This document shows positions 26,297 through 36,460 of a stretch of DNA of 64,000 nucleotides, piece by piece. Source of the DNA: Methanosarcina horonobensis HB-1 = JCM 15518 (GTDB lineage: Archaea; Halobacteriota; Methanosarcinia; Methanosarcinales; Methanosarcinaceae); assembly GCF_000970285.1 (NCBI RefSeq), contig NZ_CP009516.1, positions 124,001 through 188,000 of the forward strand, written 5' to 3'. Each line of letters opens with the position of its first letter. Position 1 is the first letter of the stretch. The notes under the pieces are model-generated. The model ran no database searches, had not been told where the DNA came from, and saw nothing but the letters and a program-made list of their open reading frames with translations. Both the position numbers and the translations under genes were made by a program.

Positions 26297-27037
26297 CTAC
26301 TTATTCTTGTTTTTGAAGGTCGCCATAATTTCTTCCGGTTCGTCAGTGTAGAATTCCAGATTCACGTTTGAGCGTGTAGTAATTTTAAGGACCTGTTGAT
26401 AAGGCACAGTGAGCTCGAAGATATAAAAATAAATAACAAGGACATATGCAACTATCCAGAAATCTACCATAACCGAGCTGAGTATTACGAAAGTCGGAGC
26501 TGCTTCCATCTGCAAATCTCTGGCTATACTTTCTACGATACGAGGTAATTGAATTGCAAGGGTCACAAGAACCAGCAAACGTAGCGGCCAGCGCAAAGAA
26601 TTGCCTTTGTTCTTCGATACTGAGGTCTGCACGATATCCTCTTTCCTTAACACAAGGGACCTGAACAGATGCCTGCGAATAATTACCTTTTCAGGAGTTA
26701 ACATCACAGTAGTACGATTATAAAGAATTAAAGCTAAAAGGGTCAGATAAGGAATTAAGGAAGGAAAGAGATGAAAAAAAGAACCTGCAGGACTGCATAA
26801 TCCCAAAATTAAACTGATTACCAGCGCTGTAATGATTATTTTTACGATTCCGTAGCCTTTATTCAGAAACTTTCCTTTCAGAACTTTACCTTCCTGCAAA
26901 CCTGCGGAATAGGGTGTTAACTGACTTTCGTTTTCCATTTTGGAACTGGAAAAGCAGTTTTCTTGCTTTTCATTTCTGAGAGAATTTTTCATCGGGCACC
27001 AGCCCACCAATTTTCGGAGAGATTCGATAAAAGCCAT
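26297..27037 (-). CDS. Array member 13: WCP-block membrane protein with PH-like domain
   Basis: This is the last gene of the thirteen-gene array. The N-terminus is MAFIESLRKLVGWCPMKNSL, followed by a polar linker, two hydrophobic hairpins, and a PH-like domain between them (VMLTPEKVIIRRHLFRSLVL). A cytosolic tail has VPYQQVLKITTRSNVNLEFY. I use the start at 27037, which fits the other members, rather than the in-frame ATG at 27064. A GTGAGG motif precedes it. It is about 98 bases downstream of member 12, and members 11-13 form a closely related subgroup. The function is unknown. Confidence 0.75.
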   Translation of the reverse strand: MAFIESLRKLVGWCPMKNSLRNEKQENCFSSSKMENESQLTPYSAGLQEGKVLKGKFLNKGYGIVKIIITALVISLILGLCSPAGSFFHLFPSLIPYLTLLALILYNRTTVMLTPEKVIIRRHLFRSLVLRKEDIVQTSVSKNKGNSLRWPLRLLVLVTLAIQLPRIVESIARDLQMEAAPTFVILSSVMVDFWIVAYVLVIYFYIFELTVPYQQVLKITTRSNVNLEFYTDEPEEIMATFKNKNK

Positions 27038-27135
27038 TTCATAAACCCTCACAATGTCTTTCATTAGACGATTTCAGCTCCACAGCCGAGGCTTCTTACG
27101 TGATTACTTTTTGGTTTTGATGTACAGTTTCGTAT

Positions 27136-27882
27136 TCAGATTCTAAAATTGAGAAGCTTTGTAAGCTCTTCCGGTTCTTTAGTGTATATCCAAAGTTTCA
27201 CGTTTGAGTATGTGGTCACTTTAAGAATCTGTTGATAAGGCGCTCGGAGTTCGAAGTTGTAAAAAAACACAAGGAGAAATGCAGCTACCAAGAACTGCGA
27301 AAGAAATAAGCTGAGTTTTGCGGAAGCTGGGGCTGCTTCTTCCAGCTGCAGATCCCTGATAATCCTTTCTATAGTACGAAGCAATATAATAGGAAGAGTA
27401 GCTAGGAAAACTAAGCGCATCGGCCAGCGCAGGGAACGGTTTTCGTTCTTCTCTATCGAGATTTGCCTGATATTTTCTTTTTCGATCACAACAGGCTTAC
27501 GCAAAGGTCTTTTGATTATGATTTTTTCAGGCATTACCGTAACAGTACTGGGATGATGGGAAAGTAATAGCAGTATGAGGGGTAAATACAGAATAAGCTC
27601 TGAAAGGATAATTAAAAAAGAGCTTTCAGGACTATATGTCCATAAAACTAAGGAGGTTATTAATGTGAAGACTAAGATTATTACAGCCCACCGTTCTGGA
27701 AATAAGTTTATCTGCACCTTGAAAATTCTACTTTCCTGAATGCCTGCGGGAGAGGAACCCGACTCAAGAATCCCATTTTCCAATTTAAACTCAGAGAAGC
27801 AGTCTATCTTCGTTCTTTTCCCCAGAGAATTCTTCATCGGACACCAGTCCATCTTTTTTAGGATAGATTCGATAAAAGTCAT
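27136..27882 (-). CDS. Array member 12: WCP-block membrane protein with PH-like domain
   Basis: This 248-residue protein opens with MTFIESILKKMDWCPMKNSL; the usual Gly before Trp is Asp here. A polar linker, paired hydrophobic segments (VIILVFTLITSLVLW, LILYLPLILLLLS), a PH-like strand region (VTVMPEKIIIKRPLRKPVVI) and a second hydrophobic hairpin follow. The tail is APYQQILKVTTYSNVKLWIY. It is clearly paralogous to its two neighbours. SD GTGAAGG precedes the ATG. The function is unknown. Confidence 0.75.
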   Translation of the reverse strand: MTFIESILKKMDWCPMKNSLGKRTKIDCFSEFKLENGILESGSSPAGIQESRIFKVQINLFPERWAVIILVFTLITSLVLWTYSPESSFLIILSELILYLPLILLLLSHHPSTVTVMPEKIIIKRPLRKPVVIEKENIRQISIEKNENRSLRWPMRLVFLATLPIILLRTIERIIRDLQLEEAAPASAKLSLFLSQFLVAAFLLVFFYNFELRAPYQQILKVTTYSNVKLWIYTKEPEELTKLLNFRI

Positions 27883-27983
27883 TTAGATGCCTTCACATTG
27901 CTTTTCAATAAACGATTTAACCTCTTCAACCTAGGCTTAATTTGTGGCTATGAAATAGTAAAAGTCTATTCATGCCGTTTTTA

Positions 27984-28729
27984 TTACTTCTCGTTTTTGA
28001 GAAATCCTGTGAGTTCTTCCGGTTCTTCAGTATACAACCAAAGTTTCAGGCTTGAACGTGTGGTTACTTTAAGGGCCTGCTGATAAGGCGCTATGAATTC
28101 GCTGTTATAAAACATTATAAGGAACATTGTTAGTATTGCAAGCTGTCTCAGAAATTGACTGAGTTCAACGTAGTCTGGGAATGATATTTTCAGGTCGCAT
28201 AAAGTTGTCATTACCTCTTTTATAAAGTAAAGCGGTATCCAAACGATGTAAATTAAGCGCATCAGCCAGCGAAGGAAATGATTTCCTGTCCTTGTTACCG
28301 AAATCTGTATGATATCCTCTTTTTCGATCACAACTGGCTTACGCATAGATCTCTTGATTATGATTTTTTCGGGTGTTACTGCAGCAGCACTTGGACTGTT
28401 AAGAAGTAACATGAGAGGCATAAGGAACATTACAAGGCCTGAAAATACGACTAAGTAAGAGCCTTCAGGACTACATACCCAGAAAAACAAGGAGACTATT
28501 ACTATGAAAAAAGTAATTATTAATGCCCATAGTACCCACTCTCCATCAAAGATGCTAACCCGTACCTTAAGAATTCTACTTCTGTGAGGATCCGTGGGAG
28601 AGGACAATAGTTGAATGTTCCTATTTTCTAATTTAAATTCAGAGAAGTAGTCTTCCTGCCACCCTTTCTCGAGTGAATTTTTCATCGGACACCATCCATT
28701 AGTTTTCGGAGAGCTTCGATAACAGTCAT
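27984..28729 (-). pseudogene. Array member 11: WCP-block/PH-like protein with a frameshift in the signature
   Basis: An ATG at 28729, one base after the previous stop, begins MTVIEALRKLM like its neighbours. One base is then missing from the run that should encode GWCP, near 28692-28696, and the frame ends at MDGVR. The main frame resumes from ATG 28685 (MKNSLEKGWQ) to 27984, with the PH-like and membrane domains intact. That ATG overlaps the early stop as ATGA, so re-initiation could still make a 233-residue protein without the WCP block. It is a frameshift mutation, a coupled restart or an error. Confidence 0.7.
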
Positions 28730-28730
28730 T

Positions 28731-29450
28731 TCATAAACCCTCGCAGTGCCTTTCAATAGATGATTTAATCTCTGCAGCCGAGGCTTCATCCGTGACTAAG
28801 GAATAGTACGGGGTCCATTCATACCATTTTTTGTGTCTGGTCTTGATATACAGCTGCGTATTCAGATCCCAGAACCGGGTTTTTTGTTTCCTTTCTAAAA
28901 ACAGTAGAAGAGGAAACAAGGAGACCAATAGCAGAAGTGGTTTCCATTCTCCTTCTGTGACAGCTATGTAAACAAAGAATCCACAAAGGGCAATGCCTCC
29001 AATAATCAGGAACAGGGACATTTTCTTTGAGCGCTTTTCAAGCCTGTATGAAGCCACACTTTCAATCTCTTCATAAGGAATTTCAAAATTCTTCAGTCTG
29101 AAGGCCTTCAAGTGTACTCCTGATTTGTCTACAAGAACTGCTGCCTTGAGAGTTTTGAGATATAGAAAGTAGTAACAGGTGTTAAGCAGGAAGAGACCTG
29201 TCAGGAAGAGTGTAATGTCTTCCGGATATCTCAGAAGCAGGCTGATACTTATATAAACAGGTACAAAAACCAGAGTTGTATTTGCAGGAAAAATCACATT
29301 TGAAGTTTGGAACTCCGGGCGATTCTCTGCCTTTCCGGAAACAGGAACTGGGTTTGAATATTTACAGGGCTGTTTTGTTTGTAATGCCATTTTCCTGCAA
29401 GCTGGGCACCAGCCCATTAGCTTTTTGACATACTTCAGATTCAGAGCCAT
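28731..29450 (-). CDS. Array member 10: WCP-block membrane protein with PH-like domain
   Basis: This 239-residue protein begins MALNLKYVKKLMGWCPACRK, then a linker. A transmembrane hairpin (VFVPVYISISLLL, ITLFLTGLFLLNTCYYF) is followed by a PH-like segment (AVLVDKSGVHLKAFRLKNFE, IPYEEIESVASYRLEK) and a second hairpin (MSLFLIIGGIALCGFFVY). A charged tail contains TRHKKWYEWTPYYSL. The PH-like region differs from that of members 11-13, so it may have been recruited separately. It lies 12 bases after member 9. The function is unknown. Confidence 0.75.
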   Translation of the reverse strand: MALNLKYVKKLMGWCPACRKMALQTKQPCKYSNPVPVSGKAENRPEFQTSNVIFPANTTLVFVPVYISISLLLRYPEDITLFLTGLFLLNTCYYFLYLKTLKAAVLVDKSGVHLKAFRLKNFEIPYEEIESVASYRLEKRSKKMSLFLIIGGIALCGFFVYIAVTEGEWKPLLLLVSLFPLLLFLERKQKTRFWDLNTQLYIKTRHKKWYEWTPYYSLVTDEASAAEIKSSIERHCEGL

Positions 29451-29462
29451 TATTTTTTTCCT

Positions 29463-29963
29463 TCAGTTGTTTGCATTGTAAATTTCTTTCCGATGGAACA
29501 GGTAGATTGCCATGGTGATAACCCCGCCTACGGCCGTCACCGCTCCCCATGATATCGGCCGCCAGGTAACGATATCTCCCAGAAAAGTCTCTTTCTCGAA
29601 GCTGCTCCCGGCACGAATATTCTGTGCATCACAATACATGGCAGCGGCGCTCAGGATAATGAAGATCGGAAGTAACTCTCGTTGATACGCTATTGGGAGC
29701 AGCCAGACCAGGGCAAGGAGAATCAAGAGTATATTCTCCCTGTAACCGGGATGATCTCTTCCTGCAGTACCGTCAGGATTCGGAGAAGGTTCAGGTCCGG
29801 GAGCACGGGCCACCTTCCGTGCATTCTCATACTCTGCTTTCGTACTCATGCACCGGGGTGCCTTTGCATAAGGGCACCAGCCCATCAGTTTTTTGACATG
29901 TTCAAAAACAATAAGTTTGGAAGTTATTATCTCCCCTCCCTGATGATATACGAGTTTTTCCAC
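29463..29963 (-). CDS. Array member 9: short WCP-block membrane protein, uncertain start
   Basis: The conserved part is LIVFEHVKKLMGWCPYAKAP, followed by a Pro/Arg-rich linker and two hydrophobic segments (NILLILLALVWLLP and LLPIFIILSAAAMY). A further helix is SWGAVTAVGGVITMAIYLF. The only standard in-frame start is GTG at 29963, 37 bases inside member 8, with a weak SD. A much better SD (GGGAGGGGAG) sits later, just before ATA/ATT codons where the family Met should be. A non-standard start is therefore possible. The function is unknown. Confidence 0.65.
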   Translation of the reverse strand: MEKLVYHQGGEIITSKLIVFEHVKKLMGWCPYAKAPRCMSTKAEYENARKVARAPGPEPSPNPDGTAGRDHPGYRENILLILLALVWLLPIAYQRELLPIFIILSAAAMYCDAQNIRAGSSFEKETFLGDIVTWRPISWGAVTAVGGVITMAIYLFHRKEIYNANN

Positions 29964-30544
29964 TTCCCATACCTTTTATCTAAATAGATTGTTTTATGGT
30001 TCTTTTTCTCCCAGTATATTAGCTGGAAATAGCTAAGCCACATCCCAACCATGAGACCTCCCACAAATGAAAACATTGCCTGCAGTGCAGGTTCGTGTTC
30101 TTTAATGTAAAGAATATATATCAAAATCAAAAATGCGTACCCAAATGTGTAGTATAGTTTTTTCTTATCCGAATAGTCAATTACCGGATGTTTAACCATA
30201 GCATCATATCTTTGCATTTGTTTTTTCCAGTCAAATATAACTATAAACAGGACAATGAAAAGTCCGACAAGTAAATGAATGAGGTTTACACCCAGAATTA
30301 AATTTATACCTAGTTGATTAATTACCAGAAAATAAGCAAATGTAAGGGATGTGTTAATTAAAAGGGTTTGGATACTTGTTTTCCGGAGCCATCCCGGATT
30401 TTCCAGACCTCCGTTTTCTCCCCCTGCTCTTTCAGGAATATCAGAATTAAAATTCTCTAAGTTAACACTTCGTCTGGCTTCAGCTGCTCGGGCGTCAGGA
30501 CACCAGCCCATAAGTTTTTTAATGTATTCAGTATTCAGGTTCAC
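29927..30544 (-). CDS. Array member 8: DUF1673-like WCP-block membrane protein
   Basis: This 205-residue protein has the N-terminus MNLNTEYIKKLMGWCPDARA, a polar linker (ERAGGENGG), a hydrophobic hairpin, a cytosolic loop DWKKQMQRYDAMVKHPVI, a second hairpin, and the tail WLSYFQLIYWEKKNHKTIYL. This layout matches the Methanosarcina DUF1673 family as I recall it. It starts at GTG, overlapping the previous stop by four bases, with SD GGAGAGGGA. The function is unknown. Confidence 0.78.
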   Translation of the reverse strand: MNLNTEYIKKLMGWCPDARAAEARRSVNLENFNSDIPERAGGENGGLENPGWLRKTSIQTLLINTSLTFAYFLVINQLGINLILGVNLIHLLVGLFIVLFIVIFDWKKQMQRYDAMVKHPVIDYSDKKKLYYTFGYAFLILIYILYIKEHEPALQAMFSFVGGLMVGMWLSYFQLIYWEKKNHKTIYLDKRYGKWKNSYIIREGR

Positions 30545-31173
30545 AGTTCCCTCTCCTTTTCTCCAAGCGCATACATCTTCTGGAACCCCTTTTCACTTTT
30601 TATGTAAATTTTCATTTGTTTTTTCCGTTCCCAGCAAATGAGCTGAAGATAGCTTCCCCACATCAGGATCAAAGCCCCTGCAATGAAAGAATACATTGAC
30701 TGAGCGTTAAGAAAATGGAGCATATGAGATAGATGAGACAGTAAAACCATAAACAAAATCAAGCCCAAAATTATGACTGAGAGAACCCAGATGAATGTTT
30801 TTTTAAAGGAAGAAGCAACAGCAGGTTTTTTTGCCAGAGCATCGTACTTATTCATCTGCTTTTTCCAGCCGAGCAAATAGGTAAGTAAAGAAAGTGAAAG
30901 GCCTAGAAGGAAAGCCTCTGAGTTTATACCTTTTTGGGATAGCAAATTTATGAGATAAAAAGTAAAGAATACTGTTGGTAGAAGAATTCTAACGTCAAAC
31001 CTGGAAAAGAGCCTGGAGAATCGGCTCAGAGCCTCAGGCCCACTGGCTTTTTCTCCTCCGGATTGAGTATATGCTTCAAAATTAGCGGGGCTAATTCGGG
31101 GTCCGGTTTCGAACGTTTTTGCATTCGGGCACCATCCCATCAGCTTTTTGATGAATTCTCCTGTCCCATTCAT
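30541..31173 (-). CDS. Array member 7: DUF1673-like WCP-block membrane protein
   Basis: This 210-residue protein starts MNGTGEFIKKLMGWCPNAKT. The linker has ISPANFEAYTQSGGEKAS, the family spacer. The loop GWKKQMNKYDALAKKPAV sits between the two membrane hairpins, and the C-terminal segment is GSYLQLICWERKKQMKIYI followed by KMYALGEKEREL. The start overlaps the upstream stop as ATGA. It is closest to members 5, 6 and 4 of the array. Confidence 0.78.
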   Translation of the reverse strand: MNGTGEFIKKLMGWCPNAKTFETGPRISPANFEAYTQSGGEKASGPEALSRFSRLFSRFDVRILLPTVFFTFYLINLLSQKGINSEAFLLGLSLSLLTYLLGWKKQMNKYDALAKKPAVASSFKKTFIWVLSVIILGLILFMVLLSHLSHMLHFLNAQSMYSFIAGALILMWGSYLQLICWERKKQMKIYIKSEKGFQKMYALGEKEREL

Positions 31174-31811
31174 TCCAGTCCCCTCTTTCCCTCAGGGCAT
31201 ATTTCCCTGGAATATGTTTTCCTGAACTCGCCTTCGCTTTTCGTACAAATTCTCATATTGTTTTTCCGCTCCCAGTAAATAATTTGCAGGTAACTGGTCC
31301 ACATGAAGAATATTGCGCCTGCACCGAATGAATAGAGAGTTTGCATGTTATGGAAAATAGTTCGAACAACATAAGGCAAAAAGACCAGAACTGAAACCAT
31401 AAGCAGAATTATTGCAAAAAATATTCTGAGGAGCTTATTCTTGCCGAAACTGCTGACCACAGGTTTTTTTGCCAGGGTGTCGTAATAATGCATTTGCTTT
31501 TTCCAGAAAAGGGCTGTGAATAGCAGCGAAAGGCCAAGCCCTTCAAGAAAAGCTTCCTGGTTTATTCCCCATCGGGAAAGCAGGGCAAGATAAAGGAGTG
31601 TGAGATAAATGCTTACCGTAAGGACCCGGTTTCTCAGCCTGGTAAATTGCCTGATAAATTGAGAAATGGTCCCCTTACTTCCGGTTTTTCCTCCCCCTGA
31701 TTGGGTAGGCGCTTCAAAATTATCAAGGCTAATTCGGGATCCTGCTCCCGCAGTTTTTGCATTCGGGCACCATCCCATAAACTTTTTTATGTTTTCAACT
31801 TTAAGGCTCAC
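31170..31811 (-). CDS. Array member 6: DUF1673-like WCP-block membrane protein
   Basis: This 213-residue protein opens MSLKVENIKKFMGWCPNAKT. It has the linker ISLDNFEAPTQSGGGKTG, the loop FWKKQMHYYDTLAKKPVV and the C-terminal TSYLQIIYWERKNNMRIC. Four predicted membrane segments have the same spacing as members 4, 5 and 7. It overlaps both neighbours by four bases (ATGA). Confidence 0.78.
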   Translation of the reverse strand: MSLKVENIKKFMGWCPNAKTAGAGSRISLDNFEAPTQSGGGKTGSKGTISQFIRQFTRLRNRVLTVSIYLTLLYLALLSRWGINQEAFLEGLGLSLLFTALFWKKQMHYYDTLAKKPVVSSFGKNKLLRIFFAIILLMVSVLVFLPYVVRTIFHNMQTLYSFGAGAIFFMWTSYLQIIYWERKNNMRICTKSEGEFRKTYSREICPEGKRGLE

Positions 31812-32374
31812 ATTTCTCCCTCTTTTTCCCCAATAGTATACGTCTTTTGAAATCCGTTTTCATATGCTGTACAAATTTTCATATGATTTTTCTTCTCCCA
31901 ATAAATTAGCTGAAGACTTGTTCCCCACATAGTAAGAATCCAGATTCCTGCAATAAAAGAATACATTGACTGAGAGTTAATAGAGGGGGGCATATGATAA
32001 GACCGGAAAACCATAAACGGGAGAAACGAAAACCAGATTAGAGATAAGAAAACATAGAAAAGTACTATTTTTGAGACATAACGAACATCAGGTTTTTTTA
32101 CAAGGGCATTGCACTCCTGTATCAGTTTTTTCCAGCAAAGTGAATTTAGCAGTAAAGAAAACAAAATACCCGAAAAGAAGAACTCTGAATCTACACCCTT
32201 TCTGGAAAAAAACCTGGAAAATTGGCTCGGAACTTTCGGACTCCCGGCTTCTTCTCCTCCTGATCGAACATATTCTTCAAAATTAGCAGAGCTTATTCGG
32301 GGTTCGACTCCGGTGGTTTTTGCATAGGGACACCAGCCCACCAATTTTTTTATGTATCTGGCTTCCCGGATCAT
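31808..32374 (-). CDS. Array member 5: DUF1673-like WCP-block membrane protein
   Basis: I start this gene at ATG 32374 (MIREARYIKKLVGWCPYAKT), which gives 188 residues and the family N-terminus. The frame is open 39 codons further, but that extension is a shadow of the tail of member 4. It has the linker ISSANFEEYVRSGGEEAG, a loop with CNALVKKPDV and the C-terminal TSLQLIYWEKKNHMKICT. It overlaps the upstream stop as ATGA. Confidence 0.77.
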   Translation of the reverse strand: MIREARYIKKLVGWCPYAKTTGVEPRISSANFEEYVRSGGEEAGSPKVPSQFSRFFSRKGVDSEFFFSGILFSLLLNSLCWKKLIQECNALVKKPDVRYVSKIVLFYVFLSLIWFSFLPFMVFRSYHMPPSINSQSMYSFIAGIWILTMWGTSLQLIYWEKKNHMKICTAYENGFQKTYTIGEKEGEM

Positions 32375-32991
32375 AGTTCTCCCCTCTTTTCTCCAAGGAC
32401 ATACAGTTTTTGCTGTCCCTTTTCTCTTCTTACATACATTTTCATATGGTTCTTCTTTTCCCAGTAAATTAGCTGAAAATAGAAACCCCACATTAGAATC
32501 AGAGTTCCTGAAACAAAAGAGTCCAGTGTCTGATGTTTAAGAAGATAAGCTACATGAGACGAGATATAAGGCAAGAAAGCCAGAAGCAAAGTAAAACCCA
32601 AAAATAGGAATAAGACCACACAGGCTAATGTCTTTCTAAAGGAAGGAGAAATAACAGTTTTCTCTTTCGCGGCATTGTATTGATGTATCTGCTTTTTCCA
32701 GCCAAATAAATAGATCGGTAAAGAAAGTGAAAGGCCAAGAAGGAAAGCTTCTGTATTTATGCCTTTTTGAAACAGGTTTATATAAATAGGAGTAAAGAAA
32801 AGTGGTAGCAGGAGAAGTTGGGTATCAAGCTTGGAATGCTGACATGGAATATTCGGAATTCTTGATTTTTCTTTTCCCGATAGATCATATGCTTCAATAT
32901 TAACAGAGCTAATTCGGGGTCCAGCTTCAAGTTTTTTTGCATTCGGGCACCAACCCATTAGTTTTTTTATAGATTCCAGAGTCATGGCCAT
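32371..32991 (-). CDS. Array member 4: DUF1673-like WCP-block membrane protein
   Basis: This 206-residue protein begins MAMTLESIKKLMGWCPNAKK; an ATG two codons later (MTLES) is equally plausible. It has the linker ISSVNIEAYDLSGKEKS, the loop GWKKQIHQYNAAKEKTVI and the C-terminal FYFQLIYWEKKNHMKMYV. The start overlaps the upstream stop by one base (TAATG). Confidence 0.77.
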   Translation of the reverse strand: MAMTLESIKKLMGWCPNAKKLEAGPRISSVNIEAYDLSGKEKSRIPNIPCQHSKLDTQLLLLPLFFTPIYINLFQKGINTEAFLLGLSLSLPIYLFGWKKQIHQYNAAKEKTVISPSFRKTLACVVLFLFLGFTLLLAFLPYISSHVAYLLKHQTLDSFVSGTLILMWGFYFQLIYWEKKNHMKMYVRREKGQQKLYVLGEKRGEL

Positions 32992-33596
32992 TACTCCGCT
33001 CCTGCATTTATAACGTAGATCTCTGGTGTGTAATACCCTTCCAGAATAACGATTTTTTCATTTTTCTTTTCCCAGTATACATCCATAAGATAATACAGAA
33101 AAGCTGTCAAACAAAAGCCGGAGGCACAAGTCAAACTGAACGTTAAAACGAATTCCCATCCAAGTGATGAGGATTTTATAAGTAGTAATGTCAGGCCCAG
33201 TATTCCAGCCATAGTTATCGATTTATTTTTCGTCTGAACCTTTTTGTTGGAATTCTTTAATTTATTCAGGAAATGCCAGTTCCAGATGCAAAGAAGCGGG
33301 TTAAAAATAATTCCGATAATTAACCCCGGTATAAAAGCTTCATTTCTGAAAGATTCTACCTGGAATCCAATCCAATATATGGAAAAGATAGTAAGCATGG
33401 AGGACATTATTAATAGCCTATTATGACGTTTGTTCCACCAGTCGGGAGATGAAATCGGAGAATTTCCTGCATCTTTTCCCCTGGATTGGTTCTCAGCTTC
33501 CAAATATTCAGGGCAGATGGAATGCCTGGTTTTAAGTGTTTTTGCATTCGGACACCATCCCATCAGCCTTTTAATGTATTTAGTGTTCAGGTCCAC
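32991..33596 (-). CDS. Array member 3: WCP-block membrane protein
   Basis: This 201-residue protein starts at GTG with MDLNTKYIKRLMGWCPNAKT. Its linker RHSICPEYLEAENQSRGKD is nearly the same as that of member 2, so these two are recent duplicates that then diverged in the membrane part. The C-terminal block is FLYYLMDVYWEKKNEKIVIL. It overlaps member 2 by ten bases. The function is unknown. Confidence 0.77.
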   Translation of the reverse strand: MDLNTKYIKRLMGWCPNAKTLKTRHSICPEYLEAENQSRGKDAGNSPISSPDWWNKRHNRLLIMSSMLTIFSIYWIGFQVESFRNEAFIPGLIIGIIFNPLLCIWNWHFLNKLKNSNKKVQTKNKSITMAGILGLTLLLIKSSSLGWEFVLTFSLTCASGFCLTAFLYYLMDVYWEKKNEKIVILEGYYTPEIYVINAGAE

Positions 33597-34312
33597 AATT
33601 TCCCCTCCTTTTCCCCAATAGCATATATCTTTTCGAGGCTATTTTCAAATTTTATATAAATCTTCATATGATTTTTCTTCTCCCAGTATACATCCGTAAG
33701 GTAATACAGAAAAGCTGTCAAACAAGTGCCAAACATAAATCCCATAACTGCCATGATTCGTGAACCGAAGTAAAGAAGCAACACTAGGGGAGATAAATCA
33801 AGCTTAAAGTAGTACAGCAAAGCTATCAAACAAAAAGCAGAGATTAAAAACAAGACGAATCCCCAGTTAAATTGTGAAAATAAGAGATACAGTAATGCCA
33901 GGAATATTATTAGATTTATAACTCTCAATTTCGACGGTACGGTTATAATTTTTATTTTTCTGCTTGAGTTCTTTATGTCGTCCAGATATGACCAGTTCCA
34001 GATACAAAAGAGCAGGTTAAAAAAAATTCCGAAAATTAACCCCGGCATAAAAGCTTCATTTTGAAGAGATTCTCTCTGGAATGCAACCCAATATACGGAA
34101 AAGATAGTAAGCACAGAGGACTCTATTAATGATCTATTACGGCGTCTGTTCCACCAACCAGAAGGTAAAAGAGGGGTGTTTCCGCCATCTCTTCCCCGGG
34201 ATTGGTTCTCAGCTTCCAGATATTCAGGGTAGGTGGAATGTCGGGTTTCAAGTGTTTTTGCATAGGGGCACCAACCCATCAGTTTTCTTACGCTTTTAAC
34301 TAATACATTCAT
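33587..34312 (-). CDS. Array member 2: WCP-block membrane protein, enlarged
   Basis: This 241-residue protein is the longest of the DUF1673-like members. It opens MNVLVKSVRKLMGWCPYAKT, with the linker RHSTYPEYLEAENQSRGRD shared with member 3. It carries an additional hydrophobic stretch (LSPLVLLLYFGSRIMAVMGF) before the common end FLYYLTDVYWEKKNHMKIYI. The extra segment may be an inserted helix pair. The function is unknown. Confidence 0.76.
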   Translation of the reverse strand: MNVLVKSVRKLMGWCPYAKTLETRHSTYPEYLEAENQSRGRDGGNTPLLPSGWWNRRRNRSLIESSVLTIFSVYWVAFQRESLQNEAFMPGLIFGIFFNLLFCIWNWSYLDDIKNSSRKIKIITVPSKLRVINLIIFLALLYLLFSQFNWGFVLFLISAFCLIALLYYFKLDLSPLVLLLYFGSRIMAVMGFMFGTCLTAFLYYLTDVYWEKKNHMKIYIKFENSLEKIYAIGEKEGKLWT

Positions 34313-34421
34313 CGCTTTTCCCCCATTCGCTGCTTATCTCTCTGCTGGGATTGCGAACAAACACTTTTTAGCTCATCACAAAACCTGTGCCTCATAGCTA
34401 TTGCTCACTCATAGTTGTTGC

Positions 34422-34766
34422 TTAAGACCTGATGTAGAGGGTGATACCAATTAAAAATAAGAGAGCCCCTATTCCTATCATGAGTCGTGATATCAGGATT
34501 TCATTACTGGTTGAGACTACTTGTATTTCCAGGACGAGTGTCAATGCCGAAATAAAAGCACCTATACTTGTAAGTAACAATCCTATTCTTTTCATATGGC
34601 TAAGAGTGTTTCCGGTTTTTTCTCCTCTGGATCGATCGGCTTTTTCCCCCTCGGATCGATCATATGCTTCAAAATTTGCAGAGCTAACCTGAGATCCGGC
34701 TTTAATAATTTTTGCATTCGGACACCATCCCATCAGTTTCCTTATACTCTTTACGAATACGTCCAT
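34422..34766 (-). CDS. Array member 1: short WCP-block membrane protein
   Basis: This 114-residue protein begins MDVFVKSIRKLMGWCPNAKI. Its linker carries an internal partial repeat (DRSEGEKADRSRGEKTG), followed by only two hydrophobic segments (GLLLTSIGAFISALTLVL and LMIGIGALLFLIGITLYI). It lacks the C-terminal YWEKKN block. It is 34 bases downstream of the regulator gene and first of the membrane genes. It may be a natural short form or a truncated copy. Confidence 0.72.
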   Translation of the reverse strand: MDVFVKSIRKLMGWCPNAKIIKAGSQVSSANFEAYDRSEGEKADRSRGEKTGNTLSHMKRIGLLLTSIGAFISALTLVLEIQVVSTSNEILISRLMIGIGALLFLIGITLYIRS

Positions 34767-34800
34767 CTTTTACCCTTCCTTCAATTTCATCTGCCTTAAG

Positions 34801-35256
34801 TCAGGCCTGTTCCACCAATTCTTTCAATTTTCCAAACAATTCGTCCGCAATCTTTGTAGGGTCTTCCGTACTCTTGAGTTTGAGCTGCATTTCCTCTGCA
34901 AAGTCCCAGAGGAGTTCGATACATTCCCTGTACCGGTCGCAGGACCCACATTCTCCTTCATGTTCGTACCAGACCTGCATCCCGTGTTTTGCCGAAACGA
35001 AGATTATTGCGTTAGCTTTGAAAGGGATTGATTTTCCGAAGAGAATTCCTTTCTTTGAGTCCAGCTTTTCTACTTCTATCCGGTTTGCCCTGGCCATCCC
35101 AAGCAGGATCTCTTCGATGCGCTTATCCATACTTAGTAGGGCTCTTGAGACTGCCTGCCTGGAGACTCCGAAATGCTTTGCGATATTGATATTCGGGAGC
35201 CCGTTTCGACGCAGAACCCAGAATTCAAACTGTTTTTCACCTTCCGGAAGGAACAT
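34801..35256 (-). CDS. Helix-turn-helix regulator with Cys cluster, head of the array
   Basis: This 151-residue protein has an N-terminal helix-turn-helix (residues ~14-45, GLPNINIAKHFGVSRQAVSR), a middle region of charged helix and strands, and a Cys cluster CGSCDRYREC (Cys103, 106, 112), which could bind metal or sense redox state. It sits at the 5' end of the array with the same orientation and only 34 bases to member 1, so it is probably its regulator and the first gene of the operon. It has a TATA box at leaderless distance. I do not know an exact family. Confidence 0.78.
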   Translation of the reverse strand: MFLPEGEKQFEFWVLRRNGLPNINIAKHFGVSRQAVSRALLSMDKRIEEILLGMARANRIEVEKLDSKKGILFGKSIPFKANAIIFVSAKHGMQVWYEHEGECGSCDRYRECIELLWDFAEEMQLKLKSTEDPTKIADELFGKLKELVEQA

Positions 35257-35277
35257 AAGTAAACATTTCTATGTTGA

Positions 35278-35287
35278 CTATATATAG
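35278..35287 (-). promoter_or_regulatory. TATA box of the array operon, probable leaderless start
   Basis: The palindromic CTATATATAG has its centre 26-27 bases from the ATG of the regulator. No SD is present before that ATG. It is the only strong TATA box I see at the head of the 9-kb array. Confidence 0.6.
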
Positions 35288-35496: not shown

Positions 35497-35949
35497 ATGA
35501 GGCCCGATATGCAGAAAGAAGACAATGAAAAAAAGGATTTAGAGGTACTATTTCTTTCAGAAAATTCCAGAAAATTAGTGCAGGCTCTCTCCAATGTAAA
35601 TTCAATAAAAATTCTGCAGCTTCTGGGGAAAAAAGACATGTCAGCAGGCGAACTTGCAGAAGAGCTTGGTTTAGGCCTGAATACACTCAAATATAATCTT
35701 GATTCCCTTATAGAGATAGATATGATCCGGGTCTCAGAGGTAAAATGGAGCCAGAAAGGCAGAAAAATAAAGGTTTACAGGCCAGTTGAAAAAATTATAG
35801 TTCTTATGCCGGGTTGCAGGAATAGCTGTAAGGAAGAAATCCTTGGCACGTTCCTGAAAAATACGCAAGGAACTTTTGCGTCGACGGAGACTATTGACAG
35901 TAAATTAAATAAAATTGACATGGATATAAAGAGGTTGAGTTTTGACTAA
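35497..35949 (+). CDS. Winged-helix (ArsR-like) transcription regulator
   Basis: This 150-residue protein has a winged helix (residues ~30-95): VNSIKILQLLGKKDMSAGEL, AEELGLGLNTLKYNLDSLIE, DMIRVSEVKWSQKGRKIKVY. A short tail of unknown use follows. Either ATG 35497 or ATG 35509 could be the start; each has a GGAG/GAGG motif. A TATA-like AAATATATAAATA lies at 35444-35456. It overlaps the next gene, a membrane protein, by eight bases. A degraded relative lies at 40266-40525. Confidence 0.82.
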   Translation: MRPDMQKEDNEKKDLEVLFLSENSRKLVQALSNVNSIKILQLLGKKDMSAGELAEELGLGLNTLKYNLDSLIEIDMIRVSEVKWSQKGRKIKVYRPVEKIIVLMPGCRNSCKEEILGTFLKNTQGTFASTETIDSKLNKIDMDIKRLSFD

Positions 35950-36460
35950 AGGATCAAATTCTCTTGTTAAATTGATAATTTTAGTATTTATTGTGATCTC
36001 CCTATTTTTTTATTTATATTTCATGGGCCAGCTCCTCTTGGGTATTATAGCTGCGGGAATAATTATTCTGATTGCAGGTATGCTACTTCTTTTGCCGAGT
36101 ATTACAGATCCTTTGAGCTCATCCTATTACAGAGGAGATGAAAAATCCGAATCCTTTGGTGTTGAATCCACATGTCTGGGTGATTCCAGAGTTTATGAAA
36201 GGCCATCTTTCTTCATCGGTGTGCCTTTCATAATCACGTTTGGAGGTGTGTTTTCTAAGTACGAGAGCATATTTTCCATAGCATACGAGAGTGGAACAAC
36301 ACTAGTTCTTTATCATGGACTCTGTTTTGTTTCAAAAGACGATAAACTTAGCATTAGCGGTAAATGGTATCGGGGGAAAAAACTCGGAATACAGGGAGAT
36401 ATTATTGTTGCAGACAGAGTTGAAAACCTGAGTTCCGGAATTATGTTTGAAAATGTGTGA
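35942..36460 (+). CDS. Membrane protein of unknown function
   Basis: This 172-residue protein starts at TTG inside the end of the regulator gene. Two closely spaced N-terminal hydrophobic segments (LIILVFIVISLFFYLYF, LLLGIIAAGIIILIAGMLL) are followed by a soluble beta-rich domain (SISGKWYRGKKLGIQGDIIV). I recognise no family. The tight overlap suggests co-expression with the upstream regulator, which may control it or sense through it. Confidence 0.6.
   Translation: MTKGSNSLVKLIILVFIVISLFFYLYFMGQLLLGIIAAGIIILIAGMLLLLPSITDPLSSSYYRGDEKSESFGVESTCLGDSRVYERPSFFIGVPFIITFGGVFSKYESIFSIAYESGTTLVLYHGLCFVSKDDKLSISGKWYRGKKLGIQGDIIVADRVENLSSGIMFENV

Follow-up and report, generated by a model that had tools for sequence, protein, structure and literature searches.

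Why should thirteen consecutive genes of one archaeon, coding for membrane proteins of several kinds, all begin with the same short peptide? This question is raised by an array in Methanosarcina horonobensis HB-1 = JCM 15518, located in the window, that is, the whole 64,000-nt stretch of DNA analyzed (NZ_CP009516.1, positions 124,001–188,000). The shared block of about 16 residues is N-terminal and ends in KLMGWCP, and the array is headed by the gene of a small helix-turn-helix (HTH) regulator. From the sequence comparison, the block is a true N-terminal tag, moving independently ahead of unrelated membrane domains. The reading we favor, to which we give an even chance of being correct, is that the tag acts as a docking handle for the regulator, a putative autorepressor, and that the array is an autorepressed envelope-response operon.

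In 340 distinct tagged proteins, at least 10 unrelated membrane domains were found behind the tag. They include the DUF1673 core, a PH domain split by membrane helices, Yip1, SdpI/DUF1648, a polysaccharide flippase, DUF6159, and an AglB-like domain. Curated Pfam models matched Yip1 (E = 1.4e-19), Polysacc_synt_3 (1.5e-20, at an unlinked Methanosarcina locus), and SdpI (3e-17 and 1.5e-17), which co-occurs with DUF1648; DUF1648 and DUF6159 were also matched. A weaker match to the AglB/STT3 core carried the WWDYE/WWDYG motif, and one protein with a GLC-type tag passed the GPDPase_memb cut-off. The original prediction had named as its own test a block conserved ahead of unrelated C-termini, also at unlinked loci, and the Pfam-distinct tails bear this out. 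A block that is only part of a single domain family is rejected on the same tails (Yip1, SdpI, DUF6159, and Polysacc_synt_3).

At Methanosarcina loci, the post-WCP parts of 160 tagged proteins formed three classes (121, 20, and 16 members) without blastp similarity to one another at 1e-5, and a singleton from the window. Leader types swap between the classes inside arrays: MPAKxFxFDQIKK stands ahead of tails A (DUF1673 core), B (split PH), C (PH-like), and D, and xESRYIKK ahead of tails A, B, and C. The repertoire widens in other Methanosarcinales, in anaerobic methanotrophic archaea of group ANME-2, and in Methanomicrobia. In hhalign profile comparison, tails A and B aligned over the block only, and tails B and C over the block and the PH strands. 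The structure model of tail B showed a PH fold into which two membrane hairpins are inserted, with a PH-like sandwich and a C-terminal helix (predicted local distance difference test, pLDDT, 80). Against PH/PTB/FERM chains it gave Z 10–11 over 82–99 residues, and the best Foldseek E-value was about 0.1. A fold search with the model of the DUF1673 core gave no credible match.

The tag is retained as a peptide. WCP is present in 331/340 distinct tagged proteins, and the start-to-W distance is 11–16 residues in 336/340, partly by construction, as starts were picked near the block; in the unfiltered set, 337/366 proteins have an in-frame start codon within range. The Gly is not invariant, because one array gene (tagged gene 12) has KKMDWCP, with D in its place. 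Codons for the G, C, and P of the block vary synonymously among the 340 proteins, which indicates selection on the peptide and not on the DNA. A DNA-level constraint or a recombination site behind the conservation is rejected, as these codons vary freely. At least one membrane helix was predicted in 344/348 tagged proteins, the other four being truncated, N-masked, or frameshifted, and the first helix lies about 42 residues past W by simple hydropathy. In the structure models of tails A and B, the block forms a short helix followed by a low-confidence stretch and then the membrane helices. Searched with a profile of the first 24 residues of the tagged proteins, the 5.02 Mb genome yielded the 13 array genes, at E-values from 7.5e-14 to 2.3e-4, and no further match at E < 1. 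One protein (L127:4896-5918) carries two complete tags (MMGWCPDES and TMGWCPNAS), each ahead of its own group of membrane helices.

Comparison among genomes ties this tag to the regulator. A tagged gene lies directly downstream of 107/116 distinct full-length regulators, mostly with a 4-bp overlap; most of the remaining 9/116 have a slightly altered tag or one farther downstream, and two loci (L229 and L244) have no recognized tag. Nearly all tagged loci begin with a regulator homolog, the unlinked flippase (L173) and SdpI (L200) loci among them, and these homologs are 56–84% identical across orders. The regulator is present in 49/50 tag-bearing genomes of a 393-genome sample of the phylum. 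In 22 genomes it occurs without a tag match at threshold, and the loci inspected mostly carry a diverged tag. In a second, named collection, which partly overlaps the first, a tag lies within 700 nt of 74/77 testable regulators, and the operator described below was found for 77/77. Hosts in the named collection are Methanosarcina, Methanoperedens, ANME-2, ANME-3, Methanolobus, Methanococcoides, Methanoculleus, Methanoregula, Methanolinea, and Methanospirillum. Single matches occur in metagenome-assembled genomes labelled Archaeoglobales and Caldiserica, labels which may be misassigned. In a survey of flanking families, no other family travelled with the loci across clades, generic ABC ATPases excepted; such an ATPase adjoins 16 of about 100 loci.

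Three further observations concern this linkage. Behind the most distant regulator (L244:867-1839, E 1.8e-36) comes a PH-like membrane protein whose first residues, MIEMFCRIPP, may be the tag in an early or reduced form. Three Methanosarcina genomes more than 90% complete (G029, G011, and G017) have no tagged genes at the thresholds used, and G029, a single contig, also lacks the regulator; these genomes are natural knock-outs for comparison. No natural fusion of regulator and tag was found, and a longer frame of 213 aa at L173 proved to be a stop-to-stop frame ending before the tagged gene.

What kind of protein is the regulator? Its residues H99, C103, C106, and C112 are 98–100% invariant in 114 regulators, with an invariant H-x3-C-x2-C-x5-C spacing, which we take to be that of the NuoG His-Cys3 [4Fe-4S] site. 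PF10588 (cut-off 27 bits) matched 6/22 regulators (best E 5.7e-4), and the window regulator scored 13.1 bits. The HTH is distantly Tfx-like (TIGR00721), with matches in 21/22 members (best E 2.6e-5). At 15.8 bits against a cut-off of 60.25 bits, the window regulator is far from Tfx family membership; it resembles that family in its N-terminal HTH and differs in the C-terminal His-Cys3 domain that follows. No Pfam family covering the whole regulator and no relative of solved structure were found, and a viral origin is rejected because viral contigs held no relative. Sensing through a metal or an iron-sulfur (Fe-S) cluster may be suggested, less firmly than the features above. The original prediction had recognized the regulator and its Cys content; the His-Cys3 site and the operator escaped it.

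The operator is a 20-bp palindrome, GTCAACAT-N4-ATGTTGAC, that follows the TATA box and stops 2 nt short of the ATG start codon. Its place in the window, and that of the regulator, are as follows.

35279..35286, minus strand: TATA box TATATATA of the regulator/array promoter, read from the sequence and conserved across Methanosarcina loci
35259..35278, minus strand: operator, 20-bp inverted repeat GTCAACAT-AGAA-ATGTTTAC, ending 2 nt before the regulator start
34801..35256, minus strand: regulator, 151 aa, HTH plus H99-x3-C103-x2-C106-x5-C112, whose homologs head the loci
34921..34962, minus strand: the regulator's invariant His-Cys3 codons (98–100% in 114 regulators)
G000:C1:462691-462710 (L255:1501-1520): second exact operator in the same genome, about 170 nt upstream of the lipoprotein gene L255:218-1333, minus strand

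Inverted repeats of at least 7/8 were found for 76/116 regulators, compared with 10/2320 random windows. Because the site overlaps the start of transcription or translation, repression is the expected effect, and the regulator most likely binds the palindrome and represses its own operon. The operator changes together with the regulator's recognition helix. In one regulator clade (support 100/99), 11/12 members have a GLC tag; here the operator is GTAAAT..ATTTAC, the recognition helix carries S32T, A35G, and R38Q, the tag reads GLC[RP]K, and R108E lies near the Cys site. Some genomes hold both regulator types (G344, G429, and G487 are examples), each paired with its own tag type.

The window's genome has two exact copies of the operator, one at the array and one upstream of the L255 lipoprotein gene, whose product matches LolA_like, MucB_RseB, and DUF4367. 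This second site before a LolA/RseB-like gene suggests an envelope regulon. Near an ANME-2d array there is another lipoprotein with these domains, and members of its blastp family adjoin seven loci of this kind. Operators also stand ahead of the second tagged gene in L182 and L233, ahead of an untagged Yip1-like gene in L129, and, with no regulator, ahead of tagged AglB-like genes (L142, L145, and L146). At two of the latter (L145:4314-5579 and L146:4892-6157) the tagged gene begins with VFLPL, the regulator's first residues, 2 nt past the operator; apparently the regulator was deleted, and the operator and tag gene were left.

How might these parts work together? On the favored reading, the window holds one copy of a conserved two-part regulatory system of methanogenic and methane-oxidising archaea. 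In the first part, the small His-Cys3 HTH regulator would bind the palindrome before its own gene and repress its own operon. The second part is the set of unrelated membrane proteins with their common tag, an amphipathic helix that has KLMGWCP at its end and is carried on a flexible leader in the cytoplasm. Tagged proteins that sense a change in the envelope, or that accumulate, would use the tag to keep the regulator at the membrane; this would free the operator and yield more envelope-protecting membrane proteins. Membrane domains swapped or added behind the constant tag would then provide new sensors or effectors for the same switch. Docking is the most economical reading because an apparent autorepressor precedes the membrane proteins, some of them of the SdpI family, and the tag is their sole constant part. 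Comparison establishes the tag, its modularity, the linkage to the regulator, and the operator; binding and repression at that site are inferred from it, and the contact between tag and regulator, the sequestration, the envelope signal, and metal or Fe-S sensing are proposed with less assurance still.

Two known systems resemble this arrangement. SdpR belongs to the ArsR family. In Bacillus subtilis, the membrane protein SdpI sequesters this autorepressor (PMC1626106). The likeness lies in an operon layout that puts a polytopic membrane protein directly behind a putative autorepressor (at 107/116 regulators here, with the operator at the regulator promoter) and in SdpI-family proteins among the tagged tails. 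The present system differs in its Tfx-like HTH and His-Cys3 site, in a tag that forms an N-terminal module of its own, shared by many unrelated membrane families, and in that no toxin gene was seen; sequestration is here a proposal. The SdpI/YfhL family (PF13630) had no match in the window genes scanned and was matched only at other loci (L200 and L217). Membrane-bound anti-sigma factors bind a transcription factor by a constant cytoplasmic docking domain, and their variable membrane or outer parts sense. The proposed role of the tag is alike in joining a constant cytoplasmic part to variable sensing parts; here, in contrast, a short peptide serves as the constant part, and an HTH protein with a palindromic operator as the regulator.

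A contact is hinted at by residue pairing: where the Cys loop has R108E, tag position C+2 is basic in 14/14 cases, compared with 1/90 for R108. A mutual-information scan of regulator versus tag columns gave no clean signal past clade effects (weighted effective number about 26). Several points weigh against docking. This covariation need not mean contact, because it comes from one or two lineages and operator, regulator, and tag are co-inherited. The regulator's His-Cys3 match is under the Pfam cut-off. A simple repressor trap would not need arrays as long as the largest ones, with about 14 tagged genes, and the regulator could be an activator or depend on a cofactor.

The strongest alternative, rather unlikely in our judgment, is that the tag is an assembly or membrane-placement motif joining membrane proteins in a complex or patch, and that the regulator controls their expression only and makes no contact with the tag. 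All tagged proteins being membrane proteins, the many loci encoding several of them in arrays of 2–14 co-oriented genes, and the basic amphipathic helix with Trp-Cys-Pro near the first membrane helix would all fit such a motif. However, many loci (L214, L215, and L217, for example) have a single tagged gene and no partner in the operon, the tag is nearly never found in a genome without the regulator (49/50), and regulator and tag variants co-segregate.

The original prediction had suggested docking, modification, or assembly shared through the single invariant Cys. Docking is still the likeliest role, at the even chance given above; modification or assembly through the Cys found no support, and no modification enzyme travels with the loci. 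That the invariant Cys is a covalent modification or redox site (lipid, disulfide, heme, or metal), with the tag as modification signal, is improbable in our estimate. The Cys is kept where W and P change (the GLCR variant), and the regulator itself has an invariant His-Cys3 site; against this, the survey of flanking families linked no modifying enzyme to the loci, and a contact residue is an equally good reading of the Cys, whose surroundings we take not to be a lipobox. Least probable is that the block lacks any role and is the conserved start of one family, diverged past recognition, which recombination in tandem arrays has spread between neighbors: arrays do recombine, with the same leader before tails A, B, and C, and the PH strands of tails B and C show a distant likeness, but the tails' Pfam matches to established families (Yip1, SdpI, DUF6159, and Polysacc_synt_3), also in genomes with a single tagged gene, largely refute it, and protein-level conservation with varied codons speaks against it as well.

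Docking, if true, would matter because archaeal transmembrane signal transfer outside two-component systems is poorly known. A short peptide would mark which uncharacterized membrane proteins of methanogens and anaerobic methane oxidisers feed one gene switch, giving function leads for families such as DUF1673 and the split-PH proteins and a portable tag for membrane-controlled gene expression. In its widest form, to which we lean slightly less than evenly, this would be a general plug-in system of membrane-to-gene signalling in archaea: the 16-residue tag would make any membrane protein an input to, or a trap for, one conserved His-Cys3, possibly Fe-S, autorepressor, lineages would expand and shuffle the tagged proteins, and the same operator would bring untagged membrane genes and envelope lipoproteins into the regulon. 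These claims lend themselves to simple tests, since only a single protein, a 20-bp DNA site, and a peptide are involved.

How much of this was on record? The original prediction knew of no such system, and the block itself had been noted: arCOG06827 is listed in Table 2 of PMC4158269 as 'Membrane protein expansion in Methanosarcina, MGWCP motif, DUF1673', and arCOG06827 (supercluster SC.00027) is among the largest superclusters in PMC4390880. The window genes are members of this family; the Pfam model differs from our description in merging the tag with one tail. The DUF1673 passages of the two papers do not describe modularity, regulator, operator, or spread past Methanosarcina. The family and the motif are therefore already known, and the tag modularity, the regulator pairing, and the operator go beyond that earlier record.

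The 5.02 Mb genome is one contig. On one side the array borders a DUF5788 gene and pyrBI; on the other, dapB follows after a few variable genes. In Methanosarcina, 23–24 loci share this chromosomal place, and their tagged genes number from 1 to about 14 per locus. As predicted, 13 consecutive minus-strand block genes (26297-34766) lie behind the regulator (34801-35256), one of them frameshifted, and the Cys-containing regulator belongs to the unit, as its linkage to the tag confirms.

34422..34766, minus strand: tagged gene 1, short two-helix tail, 114 aa
33587..34312, minus strand: tagged gene 2, DUF1673 core tail
32991..33596, minus strand: tagged gene 3, DUF1673 core tail
32371..32991, minus strand: tagged gene 4, DUF1673 core tail
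31808..32374, minus strand: tagged gene 5, DUF1673 core tail (start corrected to 32374)
31170..31811, minus strand: tagged gene 6, DUF1673 core tail
30541..31173, minus strand: tagged gene 7, DUF1673 core tail
29927..30544, minus strand: tagged gene 8, DUF1673 core tail, structure model md7cbbc1af3ff
29463..29963, minus strand: tagged gene 9, unrelated tail D (YDAQ.IRAG...WGA), nominal start; only the block matches DUF1673
28731..29450, minus strand: tagged gene 10, tail C (PH-like), WCPAC block
27984..28729, minus strand: tagged gene 11, split-PH tail B, frameshift inside the block
27136..27882, minus strand: tagged gene 12, split-PH tail B, block KKMDWCP, structure model mef970c7bd266
26297..27037, minus strand: tagged gene 13, the last, split-PH tail B (start corrected to 27037)

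The gap is 34 bp between the regulator and gene 1 and 109 bp between genes 1 and 2; from gene 2 to gene 13, the gaps are −10, −1, −4, −4, −4, −4, −37 (nominal start), 12, 1, 101, and 98 bp. The curated DUF1673 cut-off (PF07895, 30.4 bits) was passed by 12/13 array genes; 29463-29963 scored 24.4 bits. The profile, which spans the tag and a four-helix tail, matched genes 2–8 in full length, 28731 and 34422 in part, and 29463 over the block only. By tail, the array comprises seven full DUF1673 proteins, a short two-helix one (34422-34766), and PH-like tails at 28731, 27984, 27136, and 26297, which agrees with the split in the original prediction; 29463 forms a fourth tail class.

Three minor observations concern the array and its surroundings. 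In tagged gene 11, the frameshift sits in the GWCP codons and may be decay or a sequencing error. Tagged gene 9 looks like a horizontally acquired gene: its tail D is 55–65% identical to homologs in Methanomicrobia and in one Methanosarcinaceae genome, was found once among 28 Methanosarcina loci, and the usual ATG is absent. Upstream of the array, 35497-36460 on the plus strand encodes an HTH_20 regulator and a small membrane protein, which are variably present at the same place in other Methanosarcina.

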